Assembly: GCA_028583605.1 (NCBI GenBank) | Contig: CM053332.1 | Coordinates: forward strand, 10,404,442-10,468,441 | From: Dastarcus helophoroides | Taxonomy: Eukaryota > Arthropoda > Insecta > Coleoptera > Bothrideridae | Reading direction: 5' to 3' | DNA length: 64,000 nt | Shown: piece after piece, positions 18,281 through 47,505 of the stretch | How the letters are laid out: each line of letters starts with the position of its first letter | How positions within the stretch are numbered: position 1 is the first letter of the stretch | The notes under the pieces: generated by a model | Database searches by the model: none | Told to the model about the DNA's origin: nothing | What the model saw: the letters and a program-made list of their open reading frames with translations, nothing else | Program-made: the position numbers and the translations under genes

Positions 18281-18396
18281 TCGATTTCCTGCATGAACCA
18301 AAGGGGGAATAAGTGCCTCAGCCTGCCTTAGCTACGCCTATGTTGTAGCCCTATTTCAAATTTCTTTGATAGAACTGTAACATCCCTATGCAAGTA

Positions 18397-18852
18397 GGTA
18401 TTTGGTTTCCAAACTTCGAATCTAATAAATGTTCAAACCTATTGGTCTGTGCATTAGAATCCTTGTCTTCTGGGAGCTTTTTCCTAGAGAGCAACCGCTT
18501 CGCTAGGTGGCAAAGTTTCAACTGTTGGTAGTTAAGCAGCTACCTATGATTCAGTATATACGCCTGGAGGGCTGCATGAATTTGTAGCCTAGGTTGCATT
18601 CTACTTGCATACAACATTGTTGGCGATGGCTATAGTTTCTCTATGGACCAATAGGTGGCGGTAGTACTAAGAAATCACACGCTTGACGTCCGTGAATTCT
18701 ATAGTATTTACTTGTTGGAAGTCGGAACAGTTGTTAGCATTCGAGTTGGATAAACCAAACTGACGAGATCTAACAAGATCGAAACCGGTATTTGGTGTCC
18801 AAACTTCGAATCTAATAAATGTTCAAACCTATTGATCTGTCATCAGAATCCT
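18397..18852 (+). mobile_element. Retrozyme-like hammerhead element with target duplication
   Basis: Terminal direct repeats (18397-18464 and 18787-18852) share GGTATTTGGT then TCCAAACTTCGAATC. A single hammerhead motif (18754-18796) lies at the start of the right repeat and would cut GTA^TTTGG at 18790/18791; the equivalent position in the left repeat is 18400/18401, so one cleavage unit is 390 nt. The element is bounded by TGTAACATCCCTATGCAAGTA on the left (18376-18396, written here as one 21-nt-long site in two parts: TGTAACATCCCTA + TGCAAGTA) and TGTAACATCCCTA + GCAAATA on the right (18853-18872), a target duplication with one indel and one substitution. There is no open reading frame. 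This fits metazoan retrozymes: circular RNAs reverse-transcribed by a helper. Confidence 0.8.
18754..18796 (+). ncRNA. Hammerhead ribozyme (family A)
   Basis: All conserved parts are intact. Stem I is ACCAAA (18754-18759) with TTTGGT (18791-18796), 6 of 6 pairs. Core CTGACGA (18760-18766). Stem II is GATC/GATC around TAACAA (18767-18780). GAAA follows at 18781-18784, then CCGGTA: with the last A of GAAA this forms self-complementary ACCGGT, a stem III with no real loop, as in retrozyme and Penelope hammerheads that cleave best as dimers. The cleavage triplet is GTA at 18788-18790. Confidence 0.85.
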
Positions 18853-19916
18853 TGTAACATCCCTAGCAAATAAAATAAATATTACTTTATTTTGACACAA
18901 CGTACTTTTTTTCAACAACCAGTATACTTTACTAGTATCACTTGTGATCGAAATTCGACAAATTGAGTCTGTAAAGCACCGAAGTACCGAAATTTAAATT
19001 CGCAATTTAGACTTGAACGTTTTCCTTTCTTTGAAAATTTTGAATATTATTCAAAATTGGCTTTTTCTAGAAAATTCGACTTTTCCTTTAGAAATTCTAA
19101 TTTCTTGTTATATTCGACTTTTTGAATTTTTAAGATTTGTGATTTCTAAAAACTACCGAATTTTGAAAATTTTAACTGTTTTAAAAATTGTGACCCCGAA
19201 GTATACTAATTATTTAGAATTTATTTGTATCCGAATTGTTAACTTTTAACTAGGCGCTATGAGAAAGCAAAATGGAGTATAAAAATGTTGATTTCTTTTG
19301 CAAATTGCAACTCTTTGAAAATTTGACTTTTTTTTCATTTTAACTTTTTTCGAAAACTATGATTTTTTTCATAATTTCGACATATTTTTAAAATTTCTTT
19401 TTTTGAAAACCGCGACTCTTTTGTAAAAATCCCTTTTATGTGAAAATAATCCCTTTAATCTGAAAAGTTTAATTGAAAATAATATTTTGTTTTGAAAATT
19501 TTCACATTAATTCAATCGATATTTTTTAAATTTTGAATTTAAAATATTCTATTTAAGTTCATAGGCGTAGGCTAGAACAGGGTAGGGTGGGGCACTTGCC
19601 CCGCCCCTGGCTCCTGAAGTCGCCAAAATTTTACATTCAATTTTTCGATTTTTTCTTCAAAGCTATTTCCTTGCAATTTCGACAATTTTTGATAATCTCA
19701 AATTCCTTCTCATTCCATGATTTTCCACAAAATTTGCATTTTTAATTTATGTAGGAATAGCAAATGTTGGCTTTTCTCTGAAAAATTTCGAATTTCGATT
19801 TTTTTCTCCAAAATTTGATTTTTTTTTAAATTTCGGGAAAAAGATTAAGATTTCAGAAAATAAAATCAAAATTTTGAGAAAAACTAAAATTCAATATTTT
19901 TTTTTCAAAATCGTTT

Positions 19917-21896: not shown

Positions 21897-22390
21897 CTCG
21901 GAGTAGTTGTTTCTTGTGGATTGGGCTTCAAATATTTAAATTTTTAACACAGTAAATTGGTGATGAAACGTCTATTTATGTTAAAATTTCTTTATTTTTC
22001 TTTTTAATATTAAAAAAAAAATATTTTTAAATATTTCTTCCTCATTGTTCCCTTTCCATGTTATGCACTGCTGACGAGCTCAAATGAGAGCGAAACATCG
22101 ATGTCCAGTGCTACAACCTTTTTTATGTATTTTTTATATTTTCCTAATTTATCAAAAAAAAAACAAATTTTTATTTTTTCCATATCTAATTTTTGGTCTC
22201 CTATTTTTCATTATTCCTATTCTATGTAAAATAAACTAACCTCTTAATTTGTGAACTGTCATAAAGTGACGTTTTCAATAAATTTAAATATCACGTAGTC
22301 GCATTTCAAAAACTGTTTTGAAAATTGTCAACAAACCATAAAAAATTTAAACATTTCCAAACTGGGCCGAAGAAATGTTAAATAAATTGA
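21897..22390 (+). mobile_element. Hammerhead-bearing repeat, family C, copy 1
   Basis: The segment shares long stretches with 43300-43770: a 5' part ending TTCCTCATTGTTCCCTTTCC, the ribozyme, then CTATGTAAAATAAACTAACC, TGTCATAA(A/G)GTGACG and a 3' part ending AATATTTCCAAACTGG-type sequence. The 3' part alone also occurs at 32832-33047 (as an inverted pair) and 37262-37378 (minus strand). It has no reading frame. Such a layout suits a Penelope-type pseudo-LTR or a retrozyme, but no target duplication was found. Confidence 0.6.
22065..22111 (+). ncRNA. Hammerhead ribozyme (family C, copy 1)
   Basis: Stem I is GCACTG (22065-22070) with CAGTGC (22106-22111), 6 of 6. Core CTGACGA (22071-22077). 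Stem II is GCTC/GAGC around AAATGA. GAAA at 22092-22095 is followed by the palindrome CATCGATG as stem III, and the cleavage triplet GTC ends at 22105. No conserved core base is missing. Confidence 0.88.
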
Positions 22391-31839: not shown

Positions 31840-34240
31840 TAAATTGATTAATTAAATCATAATAAAATTTGAAAATGTCGACTTCAAAGTTTTGACTTTT
31901 ACGAAAATTTAATACTTTTTTTAAAATTTTGCCTATTTTGAAAACTTTCACTCTAACTGAAAACTTCGAATTTCACCTTTTTGATAAATTTGACTCATTA
32001 AACACTTCAATTTTTTAATTTCCAATTCCTAAAATTTCAACTTCTCTAAAAAATCGAAATGTCGAGTTTTTTAATGAATTTTATGTATCCGATGTTTTTT
32101 GAAAGTTTTGAAATTTTTATCAAAATTTCGCCTTTTCAAACCTTTCGCATTAACGTTTTCAACTATCCAAAAGTTTGACTTTTTCAAAATTTTTTGAAAA
32201 TTTCAACTGAATATTTCGATTTTTCTGATAATTTCGACTTTTTTTTTAATCCTTCTCTTTTCAAAATTCAAGATTTTTTGGGAAGCTTGACACCGAAAAT
32301 TTTTGAAAATGTCCATTTTTTTGAAAATTCAAATTTTTAAAAATTTTGATTTCATTTCAAAATTTAGACTTTATTCAGAAAATTTCGACTTCTCGTCAAA
32401 ATTTAGGTCTTTTAAGACTTTCGACTTTCAAAATTTGGACTTTGTTTGAATATCTTTTTTGTGTTTTTTTTTAATTTTGGCTTTTGAAGATGTAGATTTT
32501 ATTTTCCAAAGTTTCGACAACTTTTGAAATTTTGACTTTTTAAAAATACCGACGTTTTTATTAAAATTTCACTCAAAAAATTCTAACTTTTTTAAAATTT
32601 AATCTCTTTCTAAATTTCGACTTTTCCAAAAATTTCTAGCTTTTTTGCAAACTTTGAATTTTTATTAAAAATGTCTTTCAGATTTCGACTTTATTTGAAC
32701 ATTTCGAGTTGTTTAAATCGCGACATTTTCTTAAAATGTCGACTTTTTTTGATATTATGCACTCTTTTACAAAATTTCAATTTTTCTTGGTACCTCTTCT
32801 TCATGGTGGACTCTTATTGGTCGGAAACATTATGTTTATTAATTTTATTTAATACTTCTACAACCTAGTTTGGAAATATTCAAAATTTTATTAATGTTTG
32901 TTGACAATATTAAAACAGTTTTAAATAAATTTAAATACCACATAGTCATATTTCAAAAACTGTGTAGAATATTGTCAACAAATATTAATAAAAATTTAAA
33001 TATTTCCAAACTGAGTCGTAGAAATGTTAAATAAAATTAATAAACATTTTCTTGATACTTTCGCTGCTTTTTAAGATTTTCGATTTTTTCTTAAATTGCA
33101 ACTTATTTCAAAGTGGCGACTCTGCAGCTTTTTTTAGATTTGATATTTTTGAAAATGTTAACACTTTCTCAAATTTACAATCTTTCTGAAAATATTTATA
33201 CAAAAATGATGACTGTTTAAAACATGACACTTTAATATTAACCAAAAATAATTTTCGGCTTCTCAACATTTTTACTTTTCTTTCCTAGTTTATTTGAAAG
33301 TTTAGAATTTTTTGAAAATTTTCACTTTTCTTCAAAAATTAGGCTCTTCTAAAATTTCGGCTTTTTTTGAAAATTTAACTGAAAATGCTTCATTTTTTTA
33401 AATTTCCACATTTCTTCAAAATTTTGATTATTTCTGAAATTCGGATTATTTTTCAAACTCTCAACTTTTTTAAAAGTGTATTTGAAAATTTGTTCATTTT
33501 ATCAAAATCCTTTAAAATGATGACATTATTTTTCAACAGTTTAATTTTTTTAAATCCTAATTTTCAATAAAAATTTCGAAATCTTTCGAAATTTTGTCTT
33601 TTTTTAAATATTGACTTTTTCACTTTCTTTAAAACTTCGCTTTTATCTGAAAATATCGATTTTTTTTAAATCGACTTGTGATAAAACTTTGGATCATTTC
33701 GCTTTTTAAATTTTTTGAATTATTTCGAAAATTTGAACTTTTTTCAGAATGTCAATTTTTTTTAACTGTTTTACTATTTTCTTGAAAACTTCGTAATTTT
33801 TTTCTTTTAATTGAAATTCTTCTTAAGATTTGTGACTTTTCAGCTTTTTCCTCAAAGTTTTAACTAACAAAAATTTTGAAACTTTTTGATAATTTTGATT
33901 TGTTTTCGAAATTTGGGCTTTTCAAAAATTTAGGTTTTGAGATTTCACTAAATATTCATTTTTTTTAAATCTCGACAATTCTTCATGATTTCGAATATTT
34001 TTTAAATTTTAGACTTAAAATTTAAACTTTTATTTCGAAAATTTGGCCATTTTTTAAAATGTTGATTTTTTTGAAATCCTAAACTTGTTTGGAAGTTTAA
34101 CTTTCTATGAAAACTTGGATATTGTTCAAAATTTTGACATTTTTGGACTTTTCGACTGTATTGAGGGTTTCCACTTTCTTTAAAATTTCAACTTATTTTG
34201 AAATTTCAACTTGATTTCAAATTTTCATAAAAAGAAAAAA
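31840..34240 (+). repeat. Degenerate 18-bp minisatellite, T-rich on + strand (block 4)
   Basis: Same minisatellite family. It is interrupted at 32832-33047 by an inverted pair of the family C 3' segment and passes into alternating orientation after 34230. Confidence 0.75.
32832..33047. repeat. Inverted pair of the hammerhead family C 3' segment
   Basis: The left arm starts ATGTTTATTAATTTTATTTA and includes TTTGTTGACAATATT; the right arm includes AATATTGTCAACAAA and ends with the complement of the left start. Arms of about 80 bp flank a 56-bp centre. The preceding GGACTCTTATTGGTCGGAAA (32810-32829) also precedes the copy at 43300. Confidence 0.8.
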
Positions 34241-35349: not shown

Positions 35350-35760
35350 GATGAAAGTAGTCACACCGAGGACGTTTGTATCTATGGATGTTGCCATGCA
35401 ACCCGTGATACAAGCTTTGCCTCATCTACGTGAACTTTGCAATTACAATTTAGATTTCATTAGATTCTAATGAAATTAGATTTCAATTGCATCGTAATAA
35501 GCATGTGGCGAAAATGTTTGCGTAATAAACAGTTAAAAGTCAGTTACAAGTCACTCAATGGAGGTTTGCTCTCTTGGATACTTATACGACTGACTAACGG
35601 CTTTAAATTGAAAGTGTATACAACCACCGTACCAGGCTGATGAGGCCAAGGAAGGCCGAAACTAGTCTATGGTTGCGGTTGTACATATTTTCAATTTTAA
35701 ACACGTTTAACTGTTTAATTACAGAACATTTAATTGGTCATTTGTAAAAATTTTTGTTTC
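35350..35760 (+). mobile_element. Hammerhead-bearing repeat (family D)
   Basis: The segment has ordinary base composition within satellite. It begins near GTCACACCGAGGACGTTTGT (complement recurs at 47331-47350), contains AATAAACAGTTAAAAG and its inverted partner TTTAACTGTTTAATTA, and carries the hammerhead at 35619-35683. The part after the cleavage site recurs at 47427-47505. No reading frame. The organisation suits a Penelope-type pseudo-LTR or a retrozyme. Confidence 0.65.
35619..35683 (+). ncRNA. Hammerhead ribozyme (family D)
   Basis: Outer stem I TACAACC (35619-35625) pairs 7 of 7 with GGTTGTA (35677-35683), and inner ACCA (35631-35634) with TGGT (35670-35673), separated by an internal loop as in natural fast-cleaving hammerheads. 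Core CTGATGA is at 35637-35643. Stem II is GGCC/GGCC around AAGGAA. GAAA (35658-35661) is followed by CTAG as a tiny stem III, and the triplet GTC ends at 35667. The core is complete; the two positions next to the core on stem I are a G-U and a G-A. Confidence 0.85.
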
Positions 35761-37300
35761 AAAATTTGAAATTTTTTAAAAATTGTTACTTTTTGAACAT
35801 TTTGATTCTTAAAAATGTCGACTATTTTTTAAATTTAAATTATTTCTAAAAATTTCGACTTTTTGTAAACTTTCGAATTCTTTAAAATTTCGTTTTTTTT
35901 TCAACTAAAACTTTTTTAAAAAATATGGATGCTATATCAAAATTTGTTTTTTCTTTACAAAACTCGACCTTTTGTCATATTTTAGACCTTTTTACTTTTT
36001 CTTAAAATTTATATTTTTTTAAGTTTAAATTTTTTCAAAAATTTGTATTTTTTCGAAAATATCGATTTTTTTCTAAAAATTTTGACTGCAAGGCTTAGAT
36101 TTTTTTAAAGATTTAGGTTTTTTTGAAAATTGTGTACATATTTACATTTTTTGAAAAAAATTTAATTTTTTTAAACTTCTTTTTTCTTTGTTCAGTTTTT
36201 GATCAACTTTTTCAAAAATTTATAGGTTTTTGAAAATTTCGCTTTTTTAAGGTGCAACTGTTTTCTAAACTTTAGCCTTTTTAAACTCTTGGCTTTTTTT
36301 AAAAATGTTGACATTCTTTTTAAATTTTCGCTCTGAAAATTCGTAATTTTTTAAAAATGTAGAATTTTTGAAAATGTCAGTTTTTAAATTTTCGAATTTT
36401 GAAAACATTTTGAAATTTTTTAAAATTTGTTACTTTTTGAACATTTTGATTCTTAAAAATGTCGACTATTTTTTAAATAATTATTTCTCAAAATTTCGAC
36501 TTTTTGTAAATTTTCGATTTTTTTAAATTTCATTTTTTTTTAACCAGAACCTTTAATTGAGAATTTCGATTTTTTTAAAGCATCGTATTTTTTTTATTGC
36601 TGATTTTGTTGAAATTGTCGATTATTTTGAATTTTTCTATTTTTTTTTTCAAAACGTAGACTTTTTTCAAATTTGTAACTTTTTTAAAAGTTTCGACTTT
36701 TTAAAATATTTCGATAATTTTTTTAATCTTTTGAAGATTTTTAGTTTTTTAAAAAATGTTTGACTGTTATTTTGAAATTTTACCATTCAAAACTTGGCCT
36801 TATTTCAAATATTATTTCCTTAAAATTTGGTCTTTTTTTGAAAATTTCGATTTTTATAATAATTTTGGCTTTCCTTCAAAATTCAGGCTTCGACAATTTT
36901 GACTTTATTAAAAGTTAAATTTCATGGAAATCAACATTTTATTTCAATTTCGCCTATTTTTAAATTTCGAAATTTTTTTTCATATTGAGATTTTTCAAAC
37001 AGTTAATTTTGTGTTTTCTTAAGTAAAGTGGCCTTTTGAAAATTTAAATTTTTTGAAAAGTTCATTAAAAATTCTTCAATTTTTTTAAATATCGTCACTT
37101 GAAATTTTAGATTATTTCCGAAAATATTAACATCTAGGAAAATTTCGTCATTTTTTTAAATACTCGGATTTTTTGAAGTATGTCAAAATTGTTACATTTT
37201 TTAACTTTTTAGAAAATCTTAATTTTTTTTGGAAATTTTAACTTTCTCTGAAAATATTTTTTAATTTTATTTAACATTTGTTCGGTCCACTTTGGAAATA
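35760..37300 (+). repeat. Degenerate 18-bp minisatellite, T-rich on + strand (block 5)
   Basis: Same family. Near 35800-35900 and 36440-36530 there are two similar segments (TTTTGATTCTTAAAAATGTC in both), an internal duplication with an offset of about 650 bp. Confidence 0.75.
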
Positions 37301-37378
37301 TTCAAATTTTTATTGTTTGTTGACAATATTCTAGGTTTTTGGAATATGACTACTTGATATTTAAATTTATTTAAAAAG
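37262..37378 (-). repeat. Hammerhead family C 3' segment, minus strand
   Basis: The complement reads AATATTGTCAACAAACAAT then AAATATTTCC-type sequence and TTAAATAAAATTAA, as at 22260-22390 and 43640-43770. No ribozyme core is retained. Confidence 0.7.
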
Positions 37379-37379
37379 T

Positions 37380-39360
37380 CACCTCAGCGGCGATTAAAAA
37401 CCGATTACATTTTTACTTACTCGTGCAGGTCTCTAGTAGAAATTGAGCCACAGTTTATCGTTATATTGTAAAAGTTTTAAAGATTAATTGTCTGAGGTAA
37501 ACAGTACAGATCAAATTTGGTATTTGACATTATTTTATTTAGATGCCTAGTTTAGGAGGGATTCAGATCAGCCGTCTATATTAGATATATTGTCCATACG
37601 TCACAACTTACTTGAGCTTCGTTTAGAGTCCATTTCTTTTACAGAGATCTTAAAACTCGTTCTTTGGAACGAGTTTGTAGATAGCAAAGCTAACAACAAA
37701 CACAAGGGGAAACACAGCAATGGGGAAAGTAATTAAGCTTATTTATTAATGTTTCACTAGCGTGGATTCATTTGTTCACTTTTAGCTAAAAAAATTTTCG
37801 GTGGATCAAATTTTCATTGTACGCAAGTAAAAATTAATTGAATTTGATTTACTGATTGCTCACTGCAGCACTGATAGGGAACCGAAATTGTGTGAGGCGC
37901 ATTCGCTCTTGGCCGGTTTTTTTTGTATTTTTTGATGATGATAATTTAGCAACAAATCATCATTTTATGAATCTCGACGAGCAGTCAAATTAATAACAAT
38001 TAAATTATCTGGAAGGGGTTTATAGTGAAATCACTGAAAAGTTATTTAAATCCATTTAGATTTAGAAGAAAATTGGGAAAATTTTCTTTCAATTTTCCTT
38101 TTGATTAATCACTGACGCTGAAAAGTTATGAACTCAAGAAAACTAAAATCCTAGGGATTTAATTTGATTTTTTTTATTTTCTCCATGACAATTTTTGGAG
38201 TTATTTCCTTTAAAAATCAATTAAAAATTTGAGATTTTTTTTATATGTGCTACTTTCTGAACCTAGCGTAAATTAAAAATATCAAAATATCAATTTAAAA
38301 CATGGCTGACCTTTCTCATATTTGTCGGACTTAAGAACAGCGAGTACTTTTGCGATTGTTGCATTTGTGGAATAAAAAATAATAATTTCCTGATAACTGT
38401 TACGAAAAATGTTTCTGTTTGTTATTTTCGTAAAAGCGTTTGCCAATTAAACTTACCTAAATATACATTTGTAAATTGCCACTAAACAAGACAATTAAAA
38501 TTACGGCAAAAGCTTATTGCAATATGCTAATTGACAAATTATTTTAGGAAAATAAACAAGAAATGCAATGCAACGCAGATATAAACATGCAAATTATAAA
38601 TGGGTTCTGCGTAATAAATTTAAAAACGAAACCTAAACAATTAACTATTAGTAATTCTTCGAAATTAAAACATAATTGATAGCAAAATGCTATTCGGTTG
38701 ATAACGAAACTTAATTATTCGACCAATAAACTTTATTTTCGCGATGTATGAATAAATAAATATCGGGGATTAACCACAGTAAAATTCGTCATGCTAGAAA
38801 CTACTTATATTACCGTGACAGTCACAATAGCTTAAAACTTTATGGAATTTCAGATTAGAAAAAAATTAAAACCGAATAAACTGATTTTGGGGCAGTAGAC
38901 GACAATGTCGACAACTAATAGCTACCTATTTTGTACGTATATGACATATGAGTTATCAGAATTTTAAGACATTCTTCGAACTGAAGAGAATACACATTTT
39001 TAACAAAATATTTTTCCTACAAGCACTAACAATATAAAGCACCTAAAATCTTACAAAAAAGCAAAGGTCATGCAAAGATCAGGAATTAGTTATGAAGTAC
39101 ATATTAACTTATCCAATGAAGACTGTAGTAGTAACTCATTTGCAGCATGAGATAATTCCAATTAAAATGTTTATATAATCAGGAAGAACCAGTACGTTAA
39201 AAATATATTTTTTGAAATATCTCGAAATTTGCTATGCAAATGGAGAATTTGAAAATTGTGGCAGGTTTTTTAATATGCAGTACCTCAAAATACGACAATT
39301 TTTAACGGAATATAGAGGGTGAATCCTAAGCACTAATGTCATCGGTGTGAATTTTGTTGG
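37380..39360. other. Unique-looking AT-rich DNA, no gene recognised
   Basis: Stops are dense in all frames. A short patch GGAAGGGGTTTATAGTGAAAT (38011-38031, here in one 21-nt-long site) resembles 7535-7560 and 40155-40175. Nothing else can be supported. Confidence 0.4.
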
Positions 39361-43299: not shown

Positions 43300-43770
43300 G
43301 GACTCTTATTGGTCGGAAACATTCTCGGGCTTTAAATATTTAAACTTTTACCACGTGAATTATTGATGAAATGTCTATTAATGTTAAAAAAAATTTATAT
43401 ATTTAATTTTTTTATTTCTAAGTATTTGTTCCTCATTGTTCCCTTTCCAAGTTAAGCACTGCTGACGAGCCCAAATGAGAGCGAAACATCGATGTCCAGT
43501 GCTACAACTTTTTCTATATTTTCATAATTTATCAAAAAAATATTTTTTTTCACATCTAATTCTGGTCTTCTATTTTTCATTTTTTTTTCTATTCTATGTA
43601 AAATAAACTAACCTATTTTTTGTCAACTGTCATAAGGTGACGTTTTAAATAAATTTGGATATCACGTAGCCATATTTAAAAGCTGTTTTAGAATATTGTC
43701 AACAAACAATAAAAATTTAAATATTTCCAAACTGGGTCGTAGAAATGTTAAGTAAAATTAAAAATTATAG
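43300..43770 (+). mobile_element. Hammerhead-bearing repeat, family C, copy 2
   Basis: Same organisation as 21897-22390 and collinear with it over its whole length. The 5' edge shares GGACTCTTATTGGTCGGAAA with 32810. Confidence 0.6.
43456..43502 (+). ncRNA. Hammerhead ribozyme (family C, copy 2)
   Basis: Stem I GCACTG/CAGTGC, core CTGACGA (43462-43468), stem II GCCC/GAGC with one mismatch, GAAA, palindromic stem III CATCGATG, cleavage triplet GTC. It differs from copy 1 within the motif only by the one stem II base. Confidence 0.82.
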
Positions 43771-47330: not shown

Positions 47331-47505
47331 CAAACGCCCTCGGCGTGACATGCGTCTAGGTATGTTAAAATTAACAAATAATGTCAATTAAATGCTCTGT
47401 AATAAAACAGTACGAACGTGGTATGGTTGTGGTTGTAAATGGCTTCAACTTTTAGCACATTCGTACTGTTTTATTAGAGAGCATTTAATTGACCCAATTC
47501 CTTTA
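47331..47505. repeat. Inverted relic of hammerhead family D
   Basis: Left part (complement) matches the start of 35350-35760 (GTCACGCCGAGGGCGTTTGT). An inverted repeat of about 38 bp (TCAATTAAATGCTCTGTAAT left; complement at 47478-47500) flanks GTATGGTTGTGGTTGT at 47429-47444. The ribozyme core is absent: similarity on the plus strand starts at the base after the cleavage site of the 35.65-kb motif. Confidence 0.6.

Follow-up and report, generated by a model that had tools for sequence, protein, structure and literature searches.

In the consulted sections of PMC7229834 (Cervera and de la Pena 2020), metazoan non-LTR retrozymes are non-coding units of about 170-400 nt with a type I hammerhead and a highly self-paired predicted circle, which occur as tandem dimers or multimers of low GC and are bordered by duplications of more than 4 bp. 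The same sections describe a longer helix III in invertebrate hammerheads and an axolotl hammerhead, HHR_Amex1, that cleaves well only as a dimer. The machinery that moves these elements, LINEs or Penelope-like elements (PLEs), is left open there with PLEs favoured, and the mover of animal retrozymes is also left open in the consulted part of a 2024 review. Canonical PLEs are defined by the combination of a reverse transcriptase (RT) and a GIY-YIG nuclease (PMC11167929). A purified PLE starts internally at two adjacent sites and cleaves and extends both strands (PMC11167929, Frangieh 2024), the start site being alike on both strands; mutation of the hammerhead left insertion in vitro unchanged (PMC11167929). 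Target duplications of 8-10 bp are reported for some PLE copies and none for others in the consulted part of PMC3846280 (Arkhipova 2013).

We analysed a window of 64,000 nucleotides, the whole stretch of DNA under study, from the 538.9-Mb genome of Dastarcus helophoroides (contig CM053332.1, positions 10404442-10468441). The window holds 1.18 copies of a 390-nt unit carrying a type I hammerhead (Table 1), and the element is a retrozyme. It shares with the metazoan non-LTR retrozymes, as far as the consulted sections of PMC7229834 describe them, the type I hammerhead, the non-coding unit in the size range of about 170-400 nt (390 nt in the window copy and 376 nt in L008, frames of at least 120 aa being considered), the multicopy and tandem occurrence, a GC content below 50%, duplications longer than 4 bp and the highly self-paired predicted circle. 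The unit GC is 41.8% versus 26-33% in the flanks of the window copy. Hammerhead-processed non-coding RNA is also found in plant LTR retrozymes, whose circular RNA intermediates have a predicted counterpart here, but those elements have type III hammerheads, LTRs with a primer-binding site and a polypurine tract, and 4-bp duplications (consulted part of PMC4918200). PLEs encode a reverse transcriptase and a GIY-YIG nuclease, whereas the frame listing contains no frame of at least 120 aa in the window element, which thus has no RT/GIY-YIG reading frame of that length.

Table 1. Parts of the retrozyme copy and its insertion site, in window coordinates
Feature	Position	Strand	Remark
Left target duplication TGTAACATCCCTA	18376..18388	.	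13 bp; family median 12
Inverted arm TATGCAAGTAG	18387..18397	-	inverted match to site B, 11 nt
Direct arm	18397..18855	+	1.18 units in 459 bp; 3' end at site A
Complete 390-nt unit, cut to cut	18401..18790	+	highly self-paired as predicted circle
Start site A, internal copy	18448..18466	+	unit about 48-66
Start site B (GCATTCTACTTGCATA)	18596..18611	+	predicted pairing partner of site A
Type I hammerhead	18755..18796	+	predicted cut 18790/18791
Second overlap copy	18787..18855	+	ends at site A
Right target duplication TGTAACATCCCTA	18853..18865	.	

The hammerhead proposed in the first-pass annotation was confirmed by a match to Rfam HH9 at 18742-18813 (30.4 bits; E 1.2e-5 in 601 bases and 1.3e-3 in the whole window) and by its fold (z -4.6; none of 200 shuffled sequences folded as well). 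Because this score lies below the gathering score of 52, a scan at the gathering threshold reports no hammerhead. Stem I is formed by 18755-18760 and 18791-18796, followed by CTGACGA, stem II (GATCT-AACA-AGATC), GAAA and a CCGG loop. The motif had been described as fully paired, which overstates stem III: by eye, this is a single A-U pair with a palindromic CCGG cap, a weak amphibian-like form resembling that of HHR_Amex1 and differing from the longer helix III of invertebrate hammerheads, as described in the consulted sections of PMC7229834. Across the retrozyme family, 58 of the 69 hammerhead pieces retain the catalytic letters (counted in 40 unmerged pieces, among them L007). The 390-nt unit with terminal direct repeats was likewise upheld, the copies at 18397-18466 and 18787-18855 being spaced by 390 with 94% identity over a 70-bp overlap. 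Folded as a circle, the window unit reaches -126.5 kcal/mol (z -6.4), which none of 100 shuffles equalled.

The element belongs to a large family in this genome. A search of the genome with the window-copy interval, the check suggested in the first-pass annotation, gave 3301 first-look candidates, and the best 40 scored yielded 105 matches, mostly of about 90% identity and many in head-to-tail arrays of about 376 bp, in line with the further units and tandem copies expected. Insertions were mapped in 43 loci (30 from one genome search and 13 from another) on a real genomic unit, with position 1 as the first base after the predicted cut. As the insertions derive from the 40 scored loci closest to a query of 1.18 units, the sample favours long direct arms, and the direct-arm span exceeds 376 in 38/38 insertions, two of them counting an interruption. 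L004, L020 and L028 were excluded by hand as overlaps, and a script removed pieces within 60 bases of a locus end (for example L016:3275). Four of the 44 stored pieces (L007, L037:151 and two of L041) were discarded because they duplicated a flank or were repeats, and the two pieces each of L010 and L037 were merged into one insertion each, so that hand removal of duplicates and merging left 38 flank-distinct insertions. These replace earlier counts of 39 unmerged pieces (site A 21, site B 16; reciprocal 24/26; duplications 24/39) and a Fisher p of 2.7e-6 obtained from a hand-read table of unmerged pieces. The interruption in L037 (1167-1472) is about 306 bases with long inverted ends (CATATATGTAATACTTCTATATG) and ATTCTACT on both sides; it splits the retrozyme copy and is probably a small DNA transposon.

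The 3' ends of the insertions fall at two fixed internal sites, as in Penelope-type insertion. Site A, 56-66 nt after the cut, is used in 21 insertions and site B, at 202-216 nt, in 15, so that 36 of the 38 3' ends lie at A or B; the other two are at 139 (L006) and 122 (L034). The overlap of about 62 nt in the window copy, which had been taken as an accidental overshoot of one turn, thus ends at a start site common to 21/38 insertions. In contrast, the 5' ends of the direct arms are spread over the unit, and two of the 38 come within 5 nt of the cut, where 1.1 would be expected. This scatter gives no sign that the cut sets the edges; the left edge four bases before the cut is real in the window copy but is not a rule of the family, and the earlier expectation that edges follow the cleavage site was not borne out at the 5' edge (n=38). 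Six of the 38 direct arms (L005, L009, L036, L037, L038 and L039) begin at unit 343-348, where the hammerhead core starts and where reverse transcription may have stopped.

Further examination of the left edges revealed an inverted arm, a feature pointing to the mechanism that the first-pass annotation had missed. Left edges were scanned for inverted matches to sites A and B with a cut-off score of 22, and an inverted arm starting at A or B was found in 25/38 insertions, the controls scoring 9-17 (n=37, taking only left-flank controls wholly inside the locus). All 12 inverted arms starting at B are accompanied by a direct arm at A, and the 13 starting at A by a direct arm at B in 11, at A in one (L021) and elsewhere in one (L006). 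Therefore, the two arms use the two sites reciprocally in 23 of the 25 insertions (Fisher p 9.6e-6, 24 insertions classed at both ends), both strands being extended from common starts with one arm per site, as in Penelope-type insertion. The L010 edge shows by eye a 10-nt B stub, which fell below the cut-off after merging and was not counted, with its direct arm at A. In addition, the direct arms of L013 and L033 begin at unit 196-199, within site B, at a point where this site and the reverse complement of A have ATTCTA in common; these edges are possibly microhomology joins of very short inverted arms.

Most insertions are thus arranged as duplication, inverted arm, direct arm and duplication. 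Compared with swapped pairs, the left and right duplications are significant (p<0.05) in 26/38 insertions, about 2 being expected by chance; the significant ones have a median of 12 bp and measure 9-14 bp in 22/26, and longer ones may take in arm bases or a gap. L014 lies inside a repeat with a paralogue in the window, where the 11 bp are present as a single copy (22354-22364), so that this paralogue is an unoccupied site for that insertion. In the window copy, the inverted stub comes from B and the direct arm ends at A: TATGCAAGTAG is the exact reverse complement of site B with its outer position at 208, as in L002, L014 and L030, and scores 22 versus 9-17 in the 37 valid left-flank controls. 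On these grounds we rejected the gapped duplication of about 20 bp that had been said to meet the direct repeats. The gapped alignment does give 21/20 bp, but the family comparison leaves TGTAACATCCCTA as the duplication and assigns the rest to the inverted arm, so the left bases that come next would resemble the right flank by chance. TA is common to TGTAACATCCCTA and the inverted stub on the left, and TGT (18853-18855) is common to the RNA-derived right end and the target, a microhomology. The inverted arm would have been primed by the top DNA strand. The broader statement that this is a retrozyme-type element in which more than one unit turn was copied between target duplications remains supported.

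Sharing of non-majority variants was compared within and between insertions (40 unmerged pieces, L007 included). Such variants are shared in 217/686 direct-direct comparisons within insertions, a figure that gene conversion could inflate, in 47/232 comparisons of the direct with the inverted arm, and in 6118/110733 comparisons between insertions. The within-insertion sharing fits the use of one RNA, or of one homogeneous source array, for both arms. Sites A and B are predicted to be the strands of one RNA helix. In circular folds of three units, two from the L008 array and one from the window, A (48-60) pairs with B (195-208; +3 in the window unit) at pair probabilities of 0.67-1.0, with start A immediately 3' of one predicted helix strand and start B immediately 3' of its partner strand; an equally good placement is reached by 2.6-2.8% of random position pairs (tolerance 6 nt). 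Hammerhead and A/B helix positions vary less (0.024-0.030; 0.026-0.027 for the helix) than the remainder of the unit (0.047-0.048), in the same 40 unmerged pieces including L007, but the low variability of the helix is thus shared by the hammerhead stretches. No clear compensatory changes in the A/B helix were found among the copies, which are too alike.

We compared these insertions with PLEs of the same genome. A GIY-YIG search gave 1070 first-look candidates, of which 150 were scored, with 91 matches over the cut-off. Family P1 has the GIY-YIG domain, and its longer copies L050 and L073 carry upstream RVT_1 pieces (28.1 bits, which is below the cut-off, and 37.5 bits, which exceeds it), a PDB sequence search with the P1 reverse-transcriptase piece giving no match; for family P2 the domain evidence is the nuclease only. 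P1 ends in eight loci lie at 536 (L050), 546 (L047) and 572-576 (L045, L049, L060, L070, L073 and L048, the last by pairwise comparison). In L045 the arms are split between 538 (inverted) and 576 (direct), and in L047 between 576 (inverted) and 546 (direct), whereas in L048 and L060 the inverted pieces derive from the coding region. Among the 20 P2 loci compared, ends lie at 502-508 in five (L056, L059, L064, L071 and L072) and at 538-546 in eight (L046, L052, L053, L055, L057, L066, L067 and L069), with others at 523 (L065) and 389-390 (L054 and L058); the end of L063 is unclear, and L051 and L068 represent another family. The P2 query L061 has its own end at about 540 and an inverted arm at 508, L056 shows a rough split (inverted arm 522, direct end 505) and L063 has an inverted arm at 539. 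Inverted pieces start elsewhere in L052, L058 and L064 and are unconnected to a mapped direct arm in L046, L066, L067 and L069. Both families thus have two end sites about 36 nt apart, downstream of motifs that look like hammerheads by eye: with putative cuts at about +481 and +439, the starts lie about 57/93 and 66/102 nt beyond, versus about 60/208 nt after the predicted cut and a spacing of about 148 nt in the retrozyme. P1 copy L045 has a 14-bp duplication with one mismatch. The P1 tail fold does not clearly place the two starts on opposite strands of a single helix, and therefore the helix geometry is claimed for the retrozyme only. The predicted hammerhead-like motif of P1 elements, about 440-482 bases after the GIY-YIG codon in L048 for example, has TTGAAAA in place of CTGANGA, i.e. 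U3-A8 for C3-G8.

Taken together, the insertion signature suggests that retrozyme RNA is copied into DNA from both broken target ends in a Penelope-like manner, and we consider it likely that the window element is a non-autonomous metazoan-type retrozyme inserted by Penelope-like machinery. It resembles the PLE of PMC11167929 in two internal reverse-transcription starts downstream of a hammerhead and in extension of both strands from the same starts, and the PLEs of the consulted part of PMC3846280, with their inverted pLTR, a tail on one inverted pLTR and short duplications in many copies. The optional PLE tail measures 30-40 bp in the source sections consulted, whereas the retrozyme starts are about 148 nt apart and bridged by a predicted helix. 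Several findings count against this explanation: 12/38 insertions lack a significant duplication and 13/38 lack an A/B inverted arm at score 22; the unit is more variable immediately beyond start B (0.071 versus 0.047-0.048); the starts are about 148 nt apart in the retrozyme but about 36 nt apart in P1 and P2; PLE duplications are weak, reaching p<0.05 in 2 of 20 copies, with uncertain left edges; split arms in P1 and P2 are few (P1 L045 and L047; P2 L061 and, roughly, L056), and inverted pieces of P1 L048 and L060 and of P2 L052, L058 and L064 start away from the two sites; and comparison of the unit with 30 GIY-YIG loci found no similarity beyond two 14-15-nt matches.

In the mechanism that we propose, a multimeric retrozyme transcript would cleave itself and the unit RNA would then be circularised. 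A PLE reverse transcriptase-endonuclease could bind the A/B helix and make a target cut with 3' overhangs of about 12 nt. Each DNA 3' end, pairing through a few nt of microhomology, would prime cDNA at A or at B, and joining of the inverted and direct arms would complete the insertion. A more specific version, which we put forward tentatively as somewhat short of probable, is that one retrozyme RNA, probably a circle, bridges both DNA ends, a PLE dimer holding the single A/B helix, each strand of which offers its 3' edge as the priming site for one DNA 3' end. Both arms would then come from one RNA, and the reciprocity would be the scar of this complex, common to retrozymes and PLEs. Fixed starts, inverted arms and reciprocity are family features that the consulted sections of PMC7229834 do not mention, and no description of a two-site reciprocal insertion signature for retrozymes was found in the literature searched, part of it consulted in sections. 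The signature is a more direct link between animal retrozymes and Penelope-type reverse transcription than the argument from co-occurrence in those sections of PMC7229834. It points to PLEs as the movers, a question left open in the literature, names the RNA sites A and B, and suggests a way in which a single small RNA could be primed from the two ends of broken DNA.

Other routes could yield parts of this anatomy. Target duplications of similar length, and 5' inversions, are likewise seen with LINEs, and by eye the window has reverse-transcriptase-like frames that do not look like PLEs, so a LINE might borrow the retrozyme RNA and insert it by target-primed reverse transcription with twin priming (5' inversion). 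With twin priming, however, the 3' end is fixed at one place and the start of the inversion varies, whereas both retrozyme arms begin at two common internal sites, mostly reciprocally, as for PLEs; judged against this general pattern of LINEs, we regard LINE insertion as unlikely. The account of the first-pass annotation, in which a cleaved 390-nt circle is copied slightly past one turn from one end and the cleavage site sets the edges, explains the overlap, the unit length and the left edge at -4 in the window copy. We rejected the setting of the left edge by the cut given the scattered 5' edges, near the cut in 2/38, and with inverted arms in 25/38 and 3' edges at two sites at least 56 nt from the cut, this account is hardly credible.

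The element might instead be a PLE remnant, either a solo pLTR or an internally deleted PLE, rather than a retrozyme. The insertion anatomy is alike, and PLE pLTRs also carry hammerheads, as the element does. The unit was nevertheless rejected as a piece of the 30 GIY-YIG loci, a part of the PLEs of this genome, for want of real similarity; moreover, the element has no frame of at least 120 aa, its unit closes as a predicted self-paired circle, and unit arrays occur, which makes such an origin very unlikely. The preferred explanation thus remains a retrozyme moved by Penelope-like machinery.

Other hammerhead families also occur in the window. A second family is present on the + strand at 22056-22128 and 43447-43518 (HH9 39.2 and 35.7 bits) as part of elements of about 470 bp that are 80% alike, with fragments at 32835-33044, whose inverted arm ends at the same site, and at 37257-37384 (- strand). 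A third, diverged family is represented at 35618-35690 (+ strand; HH9 21.9 bits). A stretch of this family with a repeat of about 1.2 kb by eye (L049:65-1467) lies inside a P1 element at P1 position about -35, with sides overlapping by at most 3 bases. In the window fragment of the third family at 47385-47491, the inverted and direct arms end, by eye, at the same site.
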